64,000 nt of DNA, taken from NCBI GenBank assembly GCA_944388145.1, contig CALXHQ010000004.1, forward strand, positions 124,001-188,000, in the 5' to 3' direction. Below the pieces are notes generated by a model that saw only the letters and a list, made by a program, of their open reading frames with translations, had not been told where the DNA came from and searched no databases. Numbering within the stretch: the stretch's first letter is position 1; each line of letters opens with the position of its first letter. The translations under genes and the position numbers were made by a program. This document shows positions 941 to 51,053 of this stretch, one piece after another. This stretch comes from an uncultured Gemmiger sp. (GTDB lineage Bacteria; Bacillota; Clostridia; Oscillospirales; Ruminococcaceae).

Positions 941-1659
941 TTTGCCGCCTCCTCCCGCTCCAGCTGGAGAAAGACCTCCTCCAGGTTGCTCTTGCCCACA
1001 ATCTCGGCGGTGGGACCCGCCTCGATCAGGCGGCCGTTTTTCAGGATGGCCAGCTTGTCACAGAGCTTTTCAGCCACCTCCAGCACATGGGTGGAGAAAA
1101 ACACCGCCCCTCCCTCGGCGCACAGCTCATGCAGCATCTGTTTGAGGGTGTAGGCCGCGCTGGGGTCCAGCCCCACAAACGGTTCATCCAGCAAAAGCAG
1201 CCTGGGGCGGCGGATCAGCGCCGAGACCAGGGCCAGTTTCTGCTTCATACCATGGCTGTAACTGCCGATGGGGCTGCCCAAGTCGCCGGTGAGGGCGAAG
1301 GCATCGGCATATTGGCGGATGCGCGCGGTGCGGGTATCCGCCGGGATGGCACAGATGTCCGCGACAAAGTTCAGATACTGGATGCCGGTGAGGAAGTCGT
1401 ACAGGTCGGGGTTATCGGGCAGAAAGGCCATGATCCGCTTGGCCTCCACCGGTTGGGTGCGGATGGAGTGCCCACCGATAGCGATCTCTCCCTCGGTGAA
1501 ATCCAGCACCCCCGCCACCGCGCGCAGTGTGGTGGACTTTCCGGCGCCGTTGTGGCCGAGAAAGCCGTAGATCTCCCCCGGGGCCACATGCAAAGTCAGG
1601 TCCTGCACGGCGTAGCGGCCGAGCGCATACTGTTTGGAAAAATGGTTGATCCGGAGCAT
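937..1659 (-). CDS. ABC transporter ATP-binding protein (exporter, CcmA/YbhF type)
   Basis: Cytoplasmic ATPase that powers the neighbouring permease. The 240-aa protein has Walker A GHNGAGKST at residues 35-43, signature SYSHGMKQ near 133-140 and Walker B LLLLDEP near 154-160, followed by the D-loop GLD. The start MLRINHF was chosen because GGAGGG lies 6 bases upstream; the frame stays open further upstream but has no ribosome site. It is the first gene of a two-gene operon behind the promoter at 1757-1785. The substrate is unknown; drug, peptide or lipid export are all possible. Confidence 0.9.
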   Translation of the reverse strand: MLRINHFSKQYALGRYAVQDLTLHVAPGEIYGFLGHNGAGKSTTLRAVAGVLDFTEGEIAIGGHSIRTQPVEAKRIMAFLPDNPDLYDFLTGIQYLNFVADICAIPADTRTARIRQYADAFALTGDLGSPIGSYSHGMKQKLALVSALIRRPRLLLLDEPFVGLDPSAAYTLKQMLHELCAEGGAVFFSTHVLEVAEKLCDKLAILKNGRLIEAGPTAEIVGKSNLEEVFLQLEREEAAK

Positions 1660-1756
1660 ACAAATCCCTCCTTGAGGACTGCTCCCCTGCCACCGGCCGG
1701 GGTGGCCGGTATGCACAGGGAGGCGGAAAATCCAGCGCCTTGGCTGAATTTTCCAC

Positions 1757-1785
1757 AGCATACACCCAGGCAGAAACTTTGTCAA
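1757..1785 (-). promoter_or_regulatory. Promoter of the ABC exporter operon
   Basis: On the minus strand TTGACA (1780-1785) is followed by 17 bases and TATGCT (1757-1762). It lies 98 bases before the ATPase start, which fits a vegetative sigma-A promoter with a short untranslated leader. Confidence 0.75.
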
Positions 1786-1845
1786 TAGTTTATCAAAGTT
1801 TTTACAACTGCTTTCTCCCTTTGCCGCCCCAGCCGGTATGCAAAA

Positions 1846-1886
1846 GGCGCGCTGCAGAAGAAACATCTGCAGTGCGCCCGCATTTT
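1846..1886. terminator. Bidirectional hairpin terminator
   Basis: A 12-bp stem (1846-1857 with 1867-1878, one G-T pair) has a 9-base loop. It is flanked by AAAA on the left and a T-rich stretch on the right, so it can act as an intrinsic terminator in both directions. It most likely ends minus-strand transcripts coming from rqcH. Confidence 0.6.
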
Positions 1887-2240
1887 TGTGGCAAACTACA
1901 ATATAAGTCGGAGATGAGCCGGGTGTTTTTCTCTGCCAGGCAAGGATATGCGCGTTATTTTTGCCATTCGGCGATGGCGGGCGTTCCTCTTTCGTCACCG
2001 AAAGGGGAACCGAGAAAGGTGCCACCGATTTCGACGCAGTGGACGCACGAGCAAAGGGTCTTCCCCTTTGCAATCCCGCCTGAGGCAAACAGGTGCCGCC
2101 CCGCCAACGGGCGGTGCCCGGCCTTACCTTGCAGGCCGGGGGATCGTTTCTCTCCCCCGCTCCTGCCGGTAGGTTTGTTACGGTATTTCGGTGTACGCAA
2201 GCAATCCCGGCGCTTTAGACTGTCAGCTCCCGGGCAGGGA
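1887..2240. other. Non-coding stretch with a row of hairpins
   Basis: No gene is visible in this 354-base gap. Between 1983 and 2140 there are four successive inverted repeats: 1983-1994 with 1999-2010 (12 bp, one G-T pair), 2051-2058 with 2064-2071 (8 bp), a CCGCCC/GGGCGG stem near 2098-2114, and 2117-2124 with 2133-2140 (8 bp). The density suggests a structured RNA or an interspersed repeat copy. I do not recognise a known family. Confidence 0.4.
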
Positions 2241-4031
2241 TTATTTTCCGCCGCTGGTTTTGCGGAACGCGGCCTCGTTCTGGCGCAGCTGTTCCTCCAG
2301 CCCGGGGCGGGGCGTGACGTAGACGGTGGTATACACCTCGTAGACGACCATGCCCGGCTTGGCACCGGCGGGCTTTTTGATGTTGCGCACCTCGGTGGTG
2401 TCCACCGGCACCTTGGCCCCGCCGCCCACGCTGGAGTGCAGCACCGCCAGCTCAGCGGCCTCCTCTTTGGTGGTGTCGGGGATGTCCTGCCCGTAGCTCA
2501 GCACCACCGTGTGGCTGCCGGGGGCTTTCTGCACATGGAACCACAGGTCTTTGCCGCGGGCGGTGTGCAGGGTGAGCTTGTCGTTCTGGGTGTTGTTGCG
2601 GCCCACCAGAATCTCGAAACCGTCGCTGGAGCGGTAGCGCAGGAAATCGGCGGGCTTTTGCCGCTTGTCCCGCTGCTTATAGTATTTCAGGTAGCCCTGG
2701 CTTTTCAGCTCAGCGCGGATCTCGTTCAGGGCGGCCTCGCCGGGGGCGCTTTCCACCTCGTACAGGACGGTGGAAAGGTACTCGATCTCGGCCTCGCCCT
2801 CCACCAGCAGCTTTTTCAGCATCTCGCCGGCGGTCTGTTTCTTTTTGTAATCCTTAAAGTATTTCTGGGCGTTCTCATTGGGGGCCAGGCGGGGGTCCAG
2901 CGGGATAGTCACATCCTCGCCGGTGTAGTAGTTCTGCACCGTCACCTGCCGGTCGCCCTTGTGGATGGCCCAAAGGTTTGCCTGGATCAGCTCGCCGTAC
3001 AGCCGCAGCCGGTCGGCCCTGGTGCTGGCGGCCTGCTCCTCCCGCCGGGCGGCCTGCTTGCGCACGGCCCGCTCATGCATGTTATGCACCGCCTTGTACA
3101 GCTCGCGGCTCTTCTGGCGCAGGCGCTCGGCCCGGTCCTTGGTGGCGTAGTAATCCTCCAGCATCTCGCTGTAAGTGGGATAGGTGGCGATTTTGGCCGT
3201 GGGGCCGTACTGCTGCGGCACAAAAAAGCTGAACTCGGTGGGCTTGTCAGTGCCGTCGGCCCGGGGCAGGCGCACCGCAGCGGGGGTTCCGCCGGCGGCG
3301 TGTTGTGCCTTCAGGTCATCGTAGGCGGCGGCCAGCACTCTTTTTTGTTCCCCGTCCAGCTCGTTGGCAAGCCGGGCGGTCTCGCCGTCAAAGGCCCGCC
3401 AGGAGATCTCCCGCATGACCACCGGTCCCACGCCGCCGATGCTCTTGGTCAGGGCATCCGCCGGGGGCAGGTCCCGCTGGCAGGCCAGCTGCACCGCCTC
3501 GGCGCCGGAAATGCTGAGGAAATCCGGCTTGGCGGGTTTGGGCGGCAGCGTGTAGGGCAGGCCGGGCAGCAGCTGGCGAATCTCGCTGTCCTCAAAGTCT
3601 ACCCGCTTGAGGGCGTCGATGATTTTGCCGTTCTGCACCAGGACCAGGTTGGAATAACGGCCCATCAGCTCGGCAGCCATGGTGTTGATAACCAGGTCGC
3701 CCATCTCGTTGGTGCAGCGGAAGTCAAAGTAGACGATGCGGTCCCCCGGTTCCATGTGGAGCCCCACCAGCCGCCCGCCGGTCAGATGCTTGCGCAAAAG
3801 CATGCAGAAGCCCGGGGGCGTGGCGGGATTTTCAAAGGTTTCATCGGTCAGGCAGACCCGGGCGGAGCCGCTGCGGGCCGACAGCAAAAGCCGGAAGGTG
3901 TCGGTGCGGCTGCGCAAAAGCAGCAGCACCTCGTCCCGGGTGGGTTCAAAGATTTTGTCGATGCGGGCATCCAGCAGGCGGCTGTTCAGTTCCGCCGTCA
4001 CCAGTGCCAGCGTTGCGGCGTCAAGCGCCAT
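2241..4031 (-). CDS. rqcH: Rqc2/NFACT family ribosome quality control protein RqcH
   Basis: RqcH binds obstructed 50S subunits carrying peptidyl-tRNA and recruits tRNA-Ala to add C-terminal alanine tails that mark stalled peptides for degradation. The 596-aa length matches the family. The N-terminus MALDAATLALVTAEL opens the NFACT-N domain, a charged coiled-coil region lies at roughly 290-440, and the NFACT-R domain sits near 470-565 with LVGRNNTQNDKLT and WFHVQKAPGSH. Older annotation calls this family fibronectin-binding protein. It lies 21 bp after the Nif3-like gene in the same direction and is probably co-transcribed. Confidence 0.93.
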   Translation of the reverse strand: MALDAATLALVTAELNSRLLDARIDKIFEPTRDEVLLLLRSRTDTFRLLLSARSGSARVCLTDETFENPATPPGFCMLLRKHLTGGRLVGLHMEPGDRIVYFDFRCTNEMGDLVINTMAAELMGRYSNLVLVQNGKIIDALKRVDFEDSEIRQLLPGLPYTLPPKPAKPDFLSISGAEAVQLACQRDLPPADALTKSIGGVGPVVMREISWRAFDGETARLANELDGEQKRVLAAAYDDLKAQHAAGGTPAAVRLPRADGTDKPTEFSFFVPQQYGPTAKIATYPTYSEMLEDYYATKDRAERLRQKSRELYKAVHNMHERAVRKQAARREEQAASTRADRLRLYGELIQANLWAIHKGDRQVTVQNYYTGEDVTIPLDPRLAPNENAQKYFKDYKKKQTAGEMLKKLLVEGEAEIEYLSTVLYEVESAPGEAALNEIRAELKSQGYLKYYKQRDKRQKPADFLRYRSSDGFEILVGRNNTQNDKLTLHTARGKDLWFHVQKAPGSHTVVLSYGQDIPDTTKEEAAELAVLHSSVGGGAKVPVDTTEVRNIKKPAGAKPGMVVYEVYTTVYVTPRPGLEEQLRQNEAAFRKTSGGK

Positions 4032-10927: not shown

Positions 10928-11056
10928 TTATTCCCGGCCAGAGAACAGGAAGTTGAACAGGTACACCAGCGCAATGATGATGAGGGTGACAATAAACACA
11001 CCCATCCACCCCTGCAGCGAGTTGACCAGAATGGGCAAAAATGTCTCGAAATTCAT
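10928..11056 (-). CDS. 42-aa single-span membrane peptide, OadG-like
   Basis: A small gene below normal size cut-offs. It encodes MNFETFLPILVNSL, then a membrane span GVFIVTLIIIALVYLFNFL, and ends SGRE. ATG 11054-11056 has GGGGAA upstream. It follows oadB by 21 bases in the same direction. Position and topology match the small membrane subunit (gamma, OadG) of Na+-translocating decarboxylases, but it is about half the usual length and lacks a cytoplasmic tail. No homology can be proven from so short a sequence, so the role is inferred from context. Confidence 0.65.
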   Translation of the reverse strand: MNFETFLPILVNSLQGWMGVFIVTLIIIALVYLFNFLFSGRE

Positions 11057-11077: not shown

Positions 11078-12202
11078 TCAGGAAGCAAACAGTGCCAGGA
11101 TCATGCCGCCGGCGATAACCGAGGCAATCTGGCCGGAAACGTTAACGCCCACCGCATGCATCAGCAGGAAGTTCTGGTTGTCCTCCTCCAGGCCCATCTT
11201 GTTGATGACGCGGGAGGACATGGGGAAGGCAGAGATGCCAGCGGCACCGATCATGGGGTTGATCTTTTCCTTGGCAAACAGGTTGTAGAGCTTGGCGATC
11301 ATAACGCCACCCACCGTGTCGAACACAAAGCCCACCAGGCCCAGGGCCAGGATCATCAGCGTGACCGGGTTGAGGAAGCTTTCAGCCTGCATCTTGGTGG
11401 CAACGGTGATGCCCAGCATCAGGGTGACCAGGTTGGCCAGGGCCTTCTGGGCGGTGTCGGACAGGGCGTCCAGCACGCCGCACTCACGGATCAGGTTGCC
11501 GAACATCAAAAAGCCGATCAGCGCCACGCTGCGGGGGGCAAAGATGCCGGCCACCGCGGTGATGAAGATGGGGAACAGGATCTTGGTGACCTTGGAGACA
11601 CTGCGCTCCGCGTACTTCATGCGGATCAGGCGCTCCTTTTTAGTGGTGATCAGGCGGATGACAGGCGGCTGAATGATGGGCACCAGCGCCATGTAGGAGT
11701 AAGCCACCACCACAATGGCGCCGATATAGTCCGACTGGAAGAAATTGGCCACAAAGATGGAGGTGGGGCCGTCCGCCGCCGCGATGATGGCGATGGAGGC
11801 GGCGTTCTTGATGTCAAAGCCCAGCAGACTGGCAACGCACAGGGTGAAGAAGATGCCGAACTGTGCCGCCGCACCGAAGATCATCAATTTGGGGTTGGAC
11901 AGCAGCGGGGTAAAATCGATCATGGCGCCGATGCCGATGAATAGCAGCAGCGGGAACAGCTCGTTGGCGATGCCGGCGTTGAACAGCACGTCCAGGATGC
12001 CCTCCTCGGTGCCGGATTCGTACACCTGGGTCACCGCGCCGGACAGGGGCAGGTTGACCAGGATGGTGCCAAAGCCGATGGGCAGCAGCAGCGAGGGCTC
12101 CATGCCCTTTTTGATGGCCAGATAGATCAGCAGCGCGCCGATCGCCCACATGACGACCTGCTGCCACTGAAGGTTGAGTACGTTACCAAACAGTGCATCC
12201 AT
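11078..12202 (-). CDS. oadB: Na+-translocating decarboxylase beta subunit (OadB/MmdB/GcdB family)
   Basis: Integral membrane ion-transport subunit of biotin-dependent decarboxylase sodium pumps. The 374-aa length and about 10-11 helices fit. The family signature IIAAADGPTSIF, with the Asp implicated in Na+ binding, is present, as are IGIGAMIDFTPLLSNP and NQNFLLMHAVGVNVSGQI. The start MDALFGNVL has GAGGAG 8 bases upstream. Unusually, no carboxyltransferase or biotin-carrier gene is beside it; only a 42-aa membrane peptide follows. It sits behind a yybP-ykoY-like riboswitch and terminator, so it may be regulated by Mn2+. Confidence 0.9.
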   Translation of the reverse strand: MDALFGNVLNLQWQQVVMWAIGALLIYLAIKKGMEPSLLLPIGFGTILVNLPLSGAVTQVYESGTEEGILDVLFNAGIANELFPLLLFIGIGAMIDFTPLLSNPKLMIFGAAAQFGIFFTLCVASLLGFDIKNAASIAIIAAADGPTSIFVANFFQSDYIGAIVVVAYSYMALVPIIQPPVIRLITTKKERLIRMKYAERSVSKVTKILFPIFITAVAGIFAPRSVALIGFLMFGNLIRECGVLDALSDTAQKALANLVTLMLGITVATKMQAESFLNPVTLMILALGLVGFVFDTVGGVMIAKLYNLFAKEKINPMIGAAGISAFPMSSRVINKMGLEEDNQNFLLMHAVGVNVSGQIASVIAGGMILALFAS

Positions 12203-12382
12203 AGAAAAACTCCTCTCACACAGGGGGCGGTGCTGCCCCGTGCCCGGGGCGCGCCCGGGCAGTTCCGTTTTACAAGGGTGTATCCCCCGGCACAGGCCCC
12301 GCCGGACAGAGGCACATCTGAGACGCCAAGGTGTGTTTGAAAAATTTTCCCACACGTTGGATCGGGCAGATGCGCCCCAAGC

Positions 12383-12439
12383 AAAAAGACTTTTGCCATG
12401 GGTGGCACGCACGAAGCCGCTGCACATGGCAAAAGTCTT
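12383..12439 (-). terminator. Riboswitch expression-platform terminator before oadB
   Basis: A perfect 15-bp stem (12425-12439 with 12386-12400 on the minus strand) is followed by a U-run. Its 5' arm contains the last conserved strand of the aptamer (the CUUUUG that closes P1). Aptamer closing and terminator folding are therefore mutually exclusive, the usual design of a transcriptional ON switch. Confidence 0.8.
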
Positions 12440-12520
12440 GCTTTTTGATCCGGCTGCGGGCAGAAACCGTATTGACGCAGTCCGTCACGGCGTGCCCGCC
12501 GTAAGCTACTCCCTTTTGTA
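12428..12520 (-). ncRNA. yybP-ykoY family (manganese) riboswitch aptamer
   Basis: Read on the minus strand, the RNA begins with CAAAAGGGAGUAGC and ends with AGCAAGACUUUUGCC, the two hallmark strands of yybP-ykoY RNAs (consensus AAAGGGGAGUAGC and GCAAGACCUUUGCC); CAAAAG pairs with CUUUUG as P1. Internal CGUCAAUACG and GCCGG also match conserved positions. The family senses Mn2+ and turns genes on. A Na+-sensing class would suit the downstream Na+ pump, but the sequence matches yybP-ykoY. An Rfam RF00080 covariance search would settle it. Confidence 0.82.
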
Positions 12521-12527
12521 CCTCTCT

Positions 12528-12556
12528 ATTATGCGAAAGGGCGTGGACTTTGTCAA
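12528..12556 (-). promoter_or_regulatory. Promoter of the riboswitch-oadB transcript
   Basis: The minus strand has TTGACA (12551-12556), 17 bases and CATAAT (12528-12533). Transcription would start near 12521, exactly at the 5' edge of the predicted aptamer. Confidence 0.8.
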
Positions 12557-12736
12557 GAGAATTTCTCGGGGGGATTTGGCGCAATTTGCCGGCCGGAACG
12601 GCAGAGCTGCGGCGGGGCGCGCGCCCCCGGCGGGCAGCGGCCTCGCTCTGCGCGCAAACAGGTAAAATCAGGTCCGGCAGGTCCTGCCATGAGGGAAGCC
12701 GCAGGGGAGGATGCCATTTTGTTGAATTTGTTTCAC

Positions 12737-15905: not shown

Positions 15906-15927
15906 TTCTGTATAACAATTTGGAAAT

Positions 15928-16210
15928 GCAGTGACGGGAACCAGTATCCCCCAACACCGCCCCCAGAGAGCTGCCGGATGGTGCAAGGCAGCGGGCAGGC
16001 TGCGGGTGAAGTCCTCCCCGAGCAGGCCGGCTGAAACATTTGCGGTAAGCCGGCACGGCAGCATCCGTTACCGTGCGGGGCTTTGTTGGAAGCCCGTTGA
16101 GGGGATGCACCCGCCGGGTGCATCAATGAGAGTGGTACCGCAGAGAGCTATTACCGGCCTTTGTCTCTTGAACGCTTTAGTGCGTTGAGGCAAAGGCCGG
16201 TTTTATTTTT
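15928..16210 (+). ncRNA. T-box leader of the ilv operon, probable valine specifier
   Basis: Classic T-box riboswitch. Stem I opens with GCAGTGACGGGAACCAGTA and contains AGAGAGCTG and GGTGCAAGG of the apical loop motifs. The T-box sequence TGGTACCGC is at 16133-16141 and a terminator follows. The specifier side reads GTGAAGTCCTCC; the triplet after the conserved GAA is GUC, so tRNA-Val is the likely effector. CUC (Leu) two bases later is the alternative. Uncharged tRNA would pair with the T-box bulge and let ilvB be transcribed. Confidence 0.92.
16153..16210 (+). terminator. T-box terminator
   Basis: An 11-bp base stem (16153-16163 with 16191-16201) plus an inner stem is followed by TTTTATTTTT. 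It competes with the T-box antiterminator and lies 93 bases before ilvB. Confidence 0.9.
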
Positions 16211-16302: not shown

Positions 16303-17967
16303 ATGATGCTGACAGGTTCCCAGATTTTTGTCGAGGTGCTGGCCGAGCAGGGCGTGGATACCATTTTTGGCTATCCCGGCGGCGCGGTGCTGAATCTGTA
16401 CGACGAACTGTACAAAAATTCCGACCGCATCCGGCACATCCTGACCGCCCACGAGCAGGGCGCCGCCCACGCGGCGGACGGATACGCCCGCGCCACCGGC
16501 CGCACCGGCGTGGTGCTGGCCACCAGCGGTCCCGGCGCCACCAACCTGGTCACCGGCATTGCCACCGCCTTTATGGACAGCGTACCGATGGTTGCCTTTA
16601 CCGGCAACGTGGCAACCTCGCTTTTGGGCAAGGACAGCTTTCAGGAAGCCTACATCGAGGGCGTGACCATGCCCATCACCAAGCATAACTACACCGTCCG
16701 CCGGGTGGAGGACCTGGCCGACACCATGCGCGCCGCTTTCCGCATCGCCCAAAGCGGGCGCAAGGGCCCGGTGCTGGTGGATATTCCCAAGGACGTGACC
16801 GCTAATTCCTGCGAGTTCACCCCCAAGGCGCCCGAGCCGGTGCGCACCGTCACCCACTACGACGAGGAGAGCGTCAAACAGGCGGCCGAGATGATCAACG
16901 CCGCCAAAAAGCCGCTGGTGGTGTTTGGCGGCGGCGTCCGCGGCGCGGCCGGCTGCCAGCCGCTGCGGGATCTGCTGGCCAAGGCCGAAATTCCCGCCAC
17001 TTACACCCTGATGGCCGCCGGCGTGCTGGCCTACGGCGAGCCGATGAACCTGGGTCTGCTGGGCATGCACGGCTGCTACACCGCCAACAAGGCCGTGGAT
17101 GAGGCCGATCTGCTGATCGCCATCGGCACCCGGTTTTCCGACCGTGTGGCGCTCAAGCCGGAGACCTTTGCCCACAACGCCAAGCGCATCCAGATCGACA
17201 TTGACCCCAGTGAGATGGGCAAGAACGTACCGGTGGATCTGGCGCTGGTGGGCGACGCGGCCTACATCCTGCAGGCCATCCTGCCCCACATTCAGCCGGC
17301 CAGGCATCCGGACTGGATCGCCCGGATCCGGGAATGGCAGTCCCACGACTACAAACCGGTGGACAGCGACACGGTATTGAAGCCCCACCAGATGATTGAC
17401 GAAATCTGCCGCCAGGTCGGCCCCGATGCGGTCTATGTCACCGACGTGGGCCAGCACCAGATGTGGGCGGCCCAGTATCTGCACCACGTCAAGAGCCGCG
17501 GCTTTATCACCAGCGGCGGCCTGGGCACCATGGGCTTTGGCTACGGTGCGGCCATCGGCGCGCAGATCGGCCTGGGGCCGGACGCCCGCGTCATCATGCT
17601 GACCGGCGACGGCAGCTTCCACATGAACCTGAACGAGGGCTGCACCGCCGTCAGCTACGGCCTGCCCATCATCACCGTCATCTTCAACAACCAGGTGCTG
17701 GGCATGGTCCGCCAGTGGCAGACCGCCTTCTACGGCAAGCGGTATTCCAACACCGACCCGGGGCGCCGCACCGACTTTGCCAAAGTAGCGGAGGGCTTCG
17801 GCGCCAAGGGCTACCACTGCGAGACTCCCGCCGAGTTCAAGGCTGCCTTCGCCGATGCACTGAAGCAGAAAGGCCCCAGCTGGATCGACTGCCGCATCGG
17901 CAAGGACGAAAAGGTGCTGCCCATGATCCCCGGCGGCGGCGATATCAACGACATCATGATGGAATAA
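16303..17967 (+). CDS. ilvB: Acetolactate synthase large subunit
   Basis: ThDP-dependent catalytic subunit that joins two pyruvates to acetolactate, or pyruvate and 2-oxobutanoate to acetohydroxybutanoate. The 554-aa protein has the activating Glu51 in TAHEQGAAHAADGYAR, the FAD-type middle domain and the ThDP motif GDGSFHMN...NN starting near residue 435. Two adjacent ATGs are possible (16303 and 16306); GGAGAGG precedes both. It is the first gene after the T-box and is followed 14 bp later by ilvN. Confidence 0.96.
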   Translation: MMLTGSQIFVEVLAEQGVDTIFGYPGGAVLNLYDELYKNSDRIRHILTAHEQGAAHAADGYARATGRTGVVLATSGPGATNLVTGIATAFMDSVPMVAFTGNVATSLLGKDSFQEAYIEGVTMPITKHNYTVRRVEDLADTMRAAFRIAQSGRKGPVLVDIPKDVTANSCEFTPKAPEPVRTVTHYDEESVKQAAEMINAAKKPLVVFGGGVRGAAGCQPLRDLLAKAEIPATYTLMAAGVLAYGEPMNLGLLGMHGCYTANKAVDEADLLIAIGTRFSDRVALKPETFAHNAKRIQIDIDPSEMGKNVPVDLALVGDAAYILQAILPHIQPARHPDWIARIREWQSHDYKPVDSDTVLKPHQMIDEICRQVGPDAVYVTDVGQHQMWAAQYLHHVKSRGFITSGGLGTMGFGYGAAIGAQIGLGPDARVIMLTGDGSFHMNLNEGCTAVSYGLPIITVIFNNQVLGMVRQWQTAFYGKRYSNTDPGRRTDFAKVAEGFGAKGYHCETPAEFKAAFADALKQKGPSWIDCRIGKDEKVLPMIPGGGDINDIMME

Positions 17968-50904: not shown

Positions 50905-50918
50905 GAATTTGGACATAA

Positions 50919-51016
50919 AAACAGGGGCGCTGGGAGTTCTTCCCGGCTGAGATTGAGGCAAATTGCAGCCTCAGGTCGCCTTGAACCTGATCCGGGTAAT
51001 GCCGGCGTAGGAAGTT
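50919..51016 (+). ncRNA. TPP riboswitch (THI element)
   Basis: All conserved parts are present: GGGGCGCT at the P1/P2 side, GGCTGAGAT, TTGAACCTGATCCGGGTAAT and GCCGGCGTAGG. The family binds thiamine pyrophosphate and turns expression off. It lies upstream of the thiamine transporter gene thiT. Confidence 0.97.
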
Positions 51017-51053
51017 TGCGGTATCCTCACCCAAAATGAGAAGAAGCGGCTTT

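Follow-up and report, generated by a model that had tools for sequence, protein, structure and literature searches.

The closest described relatives of the RNA considered here are the Mn2+ riboswitches of the yybP-ykoY class (Rfam RF00080). Their L3 loop reads UCAAUUC (UCA41AUUC) in L. lactis and ACAUACU in X. oryzae, and its third letter is given in PMC6754395 as the invariant Mn2+ contact. Mn2+ riboswitches are termed OFF switches in one review (PMC11477304), and that of L. lactis is termed an ON switch (PMC9190785). Another riboswitch, Na+-I (the DUF1646 motif), precedes some oxaloacetate decarboxylase genes according to PMC9337991, and SSRC10 (RF02617) is an RNA of S. pyogenes detected by Northern blot and RACE (PMC3675131). 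For the protein encoded downstream the reference is the Salmonella OadB, whose residue numbering and roles are followed here; its R304 is described as important for decarboxylation (PMC7274780). No paper linking the yybP-ykoY or Mn riboswitch to oadB was found in a search that did not extend to the target lists of Dambach 2015, Price 2015 and Martin 2019, and the association could stand in the lists of those class papers. The sole paper retrieved in one search with both riboswitch and decarboxylase terms was PMC9337991, which concerns Na+ riboswitches.

The window, as the whole 64-kb stretch of DNA from an uncultured Gemmiger sp. is called here, carries on its minus strand a leader in which a promoter, the segments AAAAGGGAGUAGC, GCGUCAAUACGG and AGCAAGACUUUUGCC, a terminator stem, a ribosome-binding site and oadB follow one another in this order. 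Judged by a covariance model and by covariation, it is almost certainly an ON switch of the yybP-ykoY class. The locus comprises the following features:

12528-12556, minus strand: sigma-70-type promoter, TTGACA, a 17-base spacer and CATAAT, as read from the sequence
12429-12519, minus strand: yybP-ykoY-type aptamer with P1.1, L1 (GGAGUAGC / AGCAAGAC), P1.2, P2, P3.1, L3 and P3.2
12469-12475, minus strand: L3 loop UCAAUAC, in which alignment makes 12473 the putative equivalent of the adenosine that contacts Mn2+
12383-12439, minus strand: intrinsic terminator, a stem of 15 bp without mismatches (AAGACTTTTGCCATG/CATGGCAAAAGTCTT) followed by a T tract
11078-12202, minus strand: oadB-family gene, its ATG at 12202 after GAGAGGAG
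10928-11056, minus strand: open reading frame for a 42-aa single-helix membrane protein (mini-gamma), adjoining oadB

The first-pass annotation had assigned the leader to this class and proposed RF00080 as the check; no significant match was obtained, a result that, taken literally, rejects the assignment. RF00080 is absent at E ≤ 10 from positions 12300-12620, has no match above its gathering score in the window and none at E ≤ 0.001 anywhere in the genome. The Na+-sensing model proposed alongside it, Na+-I (DUF1646), gave no match among those listed at E ≤ 10 for 12300-12620, its presence in the library being not separately confirmed. The top Rfam match on the leader is RF02617, SSRC10, with 25 bits (E 0.0091) against a cut-off of 56. 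In the order Oscillospirales the RF00080 test has little power, since none of 245 genomes reaches its cut-off. A scan of these genomes, run with strict filters and with ten candidates scored per genome, gave RF00080 matches at E ≤ 0.1 in 25 of them. Seventeen of these sub-threshold matches are leaders of the same kind, with a GGGAGUA core, and lie ahead of mntP, P-type ATPase, Na/Ca-exchanger-type and, twice, oadB genes; the Pfam check covered three of the genes, one of the two oadB among them. The other eight (L040, L047, L048, L050, L051, L053, L054 and L055) lack the core and were set aside as chance matches. The RF00080 model of Rfam 15 overlooks these RNAs in this order of Clostridia. It is also worth mentioning that Na/Ca-exchanger-type genes stand behind the same RNA class at L041 and L042 (approximately 1640-2660, plus strand), that of L041 being assigned to PF01699.

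A covariance model of the leaders themselves, R1, was built from 15 sequences preceding mntP, P-type ATPase and Na/Ca-exchanger genes, two oadB loci being excluded from training. Run on the window at E ≤ 10, it gives one match, 12429-12519 on the minus strand, with 38.9 bits and E 7.9e-9 (the E-values of R1, and of the model R2 described below, are rough). As the L3 loop is left unaligned in this match, R1 confirms P1, L1, P1.2 and P2 but not L3. Elsewhere in the window lie a T-box leader at 15922-16165 on the plus strand (104.2 bits), before an open reading frame at 16303-17967 which we take to be an acetolactate synthase gene, and a TPP riboswitch at 50913-51030, also on the plus strand (67.3 bits).

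Among 32 oadB loci the motif is present in 25 and R1 detects 22, the ten that it misses comprising seven without the motif and three with it (L020, L023 and L030). Across the order R1 has matches at E ≤ 0.01 in 142 of the 245 genomes, a count not directly comparable to that for the RF00080 cut-off because the thresholds differ. Each match was classified by the first downstream gene resembling one of four references, P-type ATPase, MntP, OadB and Na/Ca exchanger. This assigned 147 of the 150 R1 matches listed: 59 to ATPase, 51 to MntP, 24 to OadB and five to the Na/Ca exchanger, with eight resembling none of the four. Left unclassified were G167:C30, G090:C48 and the oadB leader G106:C1; training rows of R1, every one of them non-oadB, are among the classified matches. 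The survey of the Oscillospirales suggested in the first-pass annotation thus found the pairing to recur, with oadB as the third most frequent target among the classified matches, so that chance in a single genome does not explain it.

The structure itself is borne out by comparison. An alignment of 36 oadB leaders was made without regard to structure, and the structure was then drawn on it: 85.6% of the cells are paired, 22 of 25 pairs show two-sided changes, and none of 500 shuffles scores as high, while pairing falls to 40-44% if the partner column is displaced by 1-3 positions. P1.2, enclosed by L1, is paired in 98.3% of cells in the 15 non-oadB leaders and 91.7% in the 36 oadB leaders, with two-sided changes in all four of its pairs in both alignments. 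No P4 helix or four-way junction appears in the structure fitting either the non-oadB (A1) or the oadB (A4) alignment; this does not set the oadB leaders apart, since those of mntP in the order likewise have none. The two hallmark strands of the class read in the leader by the first-pass annotation are upheld by the R1 match together with covariation, and the consensus promoter that it had placed ahead of them stands at 12556-12528 on the minus strand as TTGACA, 17 bases and CATAAT. The leader of 196 bases folds with a z-score of -5.2, none of 200 shuffles being equally stable; for the aptamer alone the folding energy is ordinary (z -1.16, matched by 29 of 200 shuffles).

The terminator that had been described as a perfect 15-bp stem reusing the closing strand of the aptamer is seen in the window, where the P1 3' strand shares bases with its 5' arm (12439-12425), and the same overlap is found in all 36 oadB leaders. 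A stem that starts in the P1 3' strand and spans at least 9 bp occurs in 36/36 leaders against 234/720 shuffled controls, and one of at least 12 bp in 35/36 against 13/720; a T tract follows the stem in 35/36, compared with 64/720 for shuffled downstream sequence. For the window leader the terminated fold has -60.9 kcal/mol and the fold with P1 enforced -51.6 kcal/mol, so that the terminator is energetically favoured, as required of an ON switch. Read from the sequence, the layout is that predicted for a ligand-ON transcriptional switch and fits ON over OFF; the terminator overlapping P1 and the PF03977 gene behind it agree with the ON-type arrangement and the oadB target named at the outset. 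In the ligand-free state, P1 would give up its 3' strand to downstream pairing, which forms the terminator; with ligand bound, an aptamer docked through L1 and L3 would hold P1, and transcription would run on into oadB and the gene for the 42-aa membrane protein.

A second model, R2, was made from the 36 oadB leaders, including that of the window, which it scores at 77.2 bits. It also recovers, at 59.9 bits, a leader of this genome that precedes mntP (the gene matching PF02659), so that the genome has a second RNA of the class. The OadB proteins were divided by their score against the window protein into a clade of 108 rows with at least 359 bits and 42 further listed rows with lower scores, referred to as canonical. 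An R1 or R2 match lies within 700 bases upstream in at least 37 of the 108 clade members and in none of the 42 canonical ones listed; G219 and G229 add two RNA-oadB pairings beyond those 37, and for 71 of the 108 there is no upstream match among the matches listed. No R2 match turned up in 21 canonical oadB loci, several of which reach just about 100-150 bases upstream, and because of these short stretches the order-wide comparison is preferred.

R2 matches lie upstream of oadB in 30 of 80 named loci, with three other matches elsewhere. The RNA-bearing loci span Oscillospiraceae, Lachnospiraceae, Butyricicoccaceae and Christensenellaceae and include those of Neobittarella massiliensis, Marasmitruncus massiliensis and Pseudoflavonifractor capillosus; in [Clostridium] symbiosum a weak match lies 419 bases upstream of oadB. 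The motif is missing in seven of the first 30 OadB relatives checked (L008, L009, L010, L012, L013, L014 and L015), which mostly come from the same genus, and six of these seven leaders have a TTGACA-type promoter and no visible aptamer. Before 20 oadB loci chosen as RNA-less, the Rfam families gave a single tRNA above threshold and nothing else. On a tree of 61 of the 80 named loci (19 were omitted, some for stops or short length, some merely to cut size) the RNA label requires 15 changes, at least nine of them on starred branches, against a shuffled mean of 22.3; the RNA thus clusters on the tree and yet was repeatedly gained or lost.

As to what the switch governs, two possibilities had been raised from the start, that Mn2+ controls a Na+ pump or that this OadB handles another cation. 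The explanation judged best overall, on which we consider the scales about level, is a Mn2+-class ON riboswitch for an OadB cation transporter that works without an alpha subunit. OadB and the one-helix protein would then form a cation transporter in the homeostasis of Mn2+ (or a related divalent metal) alongside MntP, probably an elevator-type exchanger retaining the Na+/H+ cavity of OadB. The transported ion and the independence from decarboxylation are the weakest parts of this explanation. Its chief competitor, possible but rather doubtful, is that this OadB serves as a conventional beta subunit in a decarboxylase that pumps Na+, with the genes for alpha subunit and biotin carrier at other loci; Mn2+ would raise the level of this OadB, for instance for a Na+ gradient that feeds Na+-coupled metal export or as part of a Mn2+-dependent enzyme set. 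The RNA also stands before Na/Ca-exchanger genes (5 of the 147 classified), which suits this competitor.

The protein belongs to the OadB family, with 504.6 bits to PF03977 and 426.8 bits to TIGR01109; against the OadB chain of 6IVA the E-value is 1.3e-98, with homology over 310 residues and an N-terminal segment (the query began nine codons upstream of the ATG). Its closest named relative (82%) comes from an uncultured Gemmiger. The window protein keeps the equivalents of the Salmonella catalytic and Na+-site residues D203, S382, N412 and E40. In a comparison of 75 clade members with 21 canonical OadB, E40, D203 and Y229 are kept in the clade, as are N373, G377, S382 and N412 save in one gapped row, and this conservation speaks for a beta subunit. 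Other positions have diverged: T148 is replaced by I in 75/75, N311 is kept in 26/75, and R304 is kept in 3/75 and in 2/30 riboswitch-bearing named loci, the window protein having A for R304, K for N311 and I for T148. The loss of R304 was dropped as a sign of lost decarboxylation and weighs little against the beta-subunit reading, since it is equally seen in members of the clade that adjoin a biotin carrier (L260, L277 and L325). The idea that OadB substitutes for MntP was likewise rejected: MntP is found in 222 of 245 genomes and in 38 of the 39 with the pairing, so there is no mutual exclusion and OadB does not replace it.

The neighbourhood of the gene bears on the same choice. No gene for an alpha subunit, a biotin carrier or a full gamma subunit adjoins the window oadB. 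A PYC_OADA gene lies within 5 kb of at least one of the 108 clade members (G063) and of at least 24 of the 42 canonical OadB, and an OadA-like gene directly follows 14 of 21 canonical oadB genes. In flanks of up to 3 kb on either side, biotin carriers occur at 8 of the 80 named loci, 0/30 with the RNA against 8/50 without it, which argues against the beta-subunit reading. Carrier-adjacent clade members, from Streptococcus, Floricoccus and others, favour it; some lie near the base of the clade, and they share most of the clade-specific residues. An unlinked alpha subunit is possible in the genome of the window because of a cluster on contig C24 where PF01039, PF00364 (biotin carrier) and PYC_OADA matches lie together, a further point for a conventional pump, and of the 39 genomes that pair RNA and oadB, 36 have PYC_OADA somewhere. 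The three others (G168, G076 and G229, draft genomes 100, 99 and 97% complete) pair RNA and oadB, and neither PYC_OADA nor a full-length PF01039 protein was found in them. Each has two short PF01039 frames of AccA/AccD size, matching the model in halves as in acetyl-CoA carboxylase; biotin-carrier matches number none in G168, one in G076 (beside the PF01039 pair) and three in G229. An assembly gap is possible, since all three are drafts and G168 is without even the carrier required by acetyl-CoA carboxylase. These near-complete genomes are the strongest support for independence from decarboxylation.

The adjoining reading frame of 42 codons starts 21 bases past the oadB stop and encodes one hydrophobic segment without a confident Pfam match; a close-type relative matches OAD_gamma at E 0.08, with 14.1 bits against a cut-off of 27, and the protein may be a gamma subunit reduced to its membrane helix. 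A short one-helix frame after oadB was found in 74/75 clade members, 0/21 canonical loci and 66/80 named loci, with a search pattern chosen after examples had been viewed. OadH of Enterococcus is a small membrane subunit too. As it belongs to the oadHDB operon (PMC3198936), a one-helix partner is no proof of independence from alpha and sits well with a beta subunit. Separation from the alpha subunit and the three genomes lacking a dedicated one lean towards an OadB handling another cation; conserved Na+-site residues and OadA-type genes in 36/39 genomes lean towards Mn2+ controlling a Na+ pump. An alpha-less transport role of this OadB in metal balance is accordingly put forward as a proposal that could fall either way, and Mn2+ export by it as a tentative one.

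The ligand of the oadB leader is probably Mn2+, by analogy with its RNA class. An alternative which we regard as improbable is that the oadB-linked aptamers are a yybP-ykoY variant sensing another ion; variants with other divalent specificities are expected by a review (PMC7266159), and the type of L3 differs with the target gene. Of 24 oadB leaders, 18 have CG[UCANNNC], three an ACA-type and one a CAACA-type loop, two being unassigned, whereas the CAACA type is found in 50/51 mntP, 51/59 ATPase and 5/5 Na/Ca-exchanger leaders. In genomes with both leader kinds the types differ in 12 of 13, and that of the window has GCCAACAUCAUGG before mntP and GCGUCAAUACGG before oadB. Against another ion, the window loop UCAAUAC is one base off that of the L. 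lactis Mn2+ riboswitch and keeps the invariant adenosine (PMC6754395), the CA columns being invariant in A4; the oadB-type loop also occurs in 5/59 ATPase leaders, and the survey is biased against non-CAACA types because R1 was trained mostly on CAACA-type loops. The differing metal-site loops before oadB and mntP in one genome make the question of yybP ion specificity testable with two short RNAs.

A small RNA acting on its own, or a plain attenuator that binds no ligand, is very hard to credit as the nature of this RNA: its best Rfam match, RF02617, is labelled as an sRNA, but R1 finds the RF02617 matches of two related genomes, where they precede P-type ATPase genes, the S. pyogenes SSRC10 locus precedes a putative calcium transporter (PMC3675131), and core and stems covary in the 36 oadB leaders. 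The RF02617 matches, from Streptococcus sp. S784/96/1 and Floricoccus tropicus and scored by R1 at 48.2 and 38.0 bits, are:

L335, 1500-1589, plus strand: SSRC10 (RF02617) match
L336, 1522-1605, minus strand: SSRC10 (RF02617) match

Since R1 finds it, and before a P-type ATPase or putative calcium transporter gene, SSRC10 looks like the product of a terminated riboswitch, and it is probably the terminated product of a yybP-ykoY leader.

Returning to the Mn2+-class switch for a transporter, the recurrent pairing with oadB suggests a role of OadB in manganese balance. With this pairing, an entire family of proteins joins the targets of the Mn2+-class riboswitch across a large part of the Clostridia, and OadB proteins that stand alone gain a concrete candidate function. 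It is conceivable, if speculative, that alpha-less OadB with its one-helix partner is an unrecognised family of exporters of Mn2+ or a related divalent metal, derived from the decarboxylase Na+ pump and switched on by a yybP-ykoY variant that has an L3 loop of its own; if true, OadB-type proteins would be secondary metal exchangers.

Compared with the known systems, the window OadB is homologous to that of Salmonella (6IVA, 6IWW) and has the Na+-site residues in common with it; unlike in Salmonella, no alpha or full gamma gene adjoins, and R304, N311 and T148 are replaced. The two-stem layout given for the Na+-I riboswitch in PMC9337991 is unlike the window aptamer. SSRC10 shares the L1 strands, L3 and the overlapping terminator with the window leader; it differs in being annotated as an sRNA and in preceding a P-type ATPase gene in the two genomes tested. 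From yybP-ykoY as modelled in RF00080 the leader differs in falling below detection and in its target, oadB, and while a four-way junction is a feature of the solved aptamers (PMC6754395), the structures modelled for oadB and mntP leaders of the order contain no P4. With that class it shares the L1 strands GGGAGUAGC and GCAAGAC, P1.2 and P2, the P3 helix with the sensing adenosine of L3, and the transcriptional platform in which P1 is set against the terminator.
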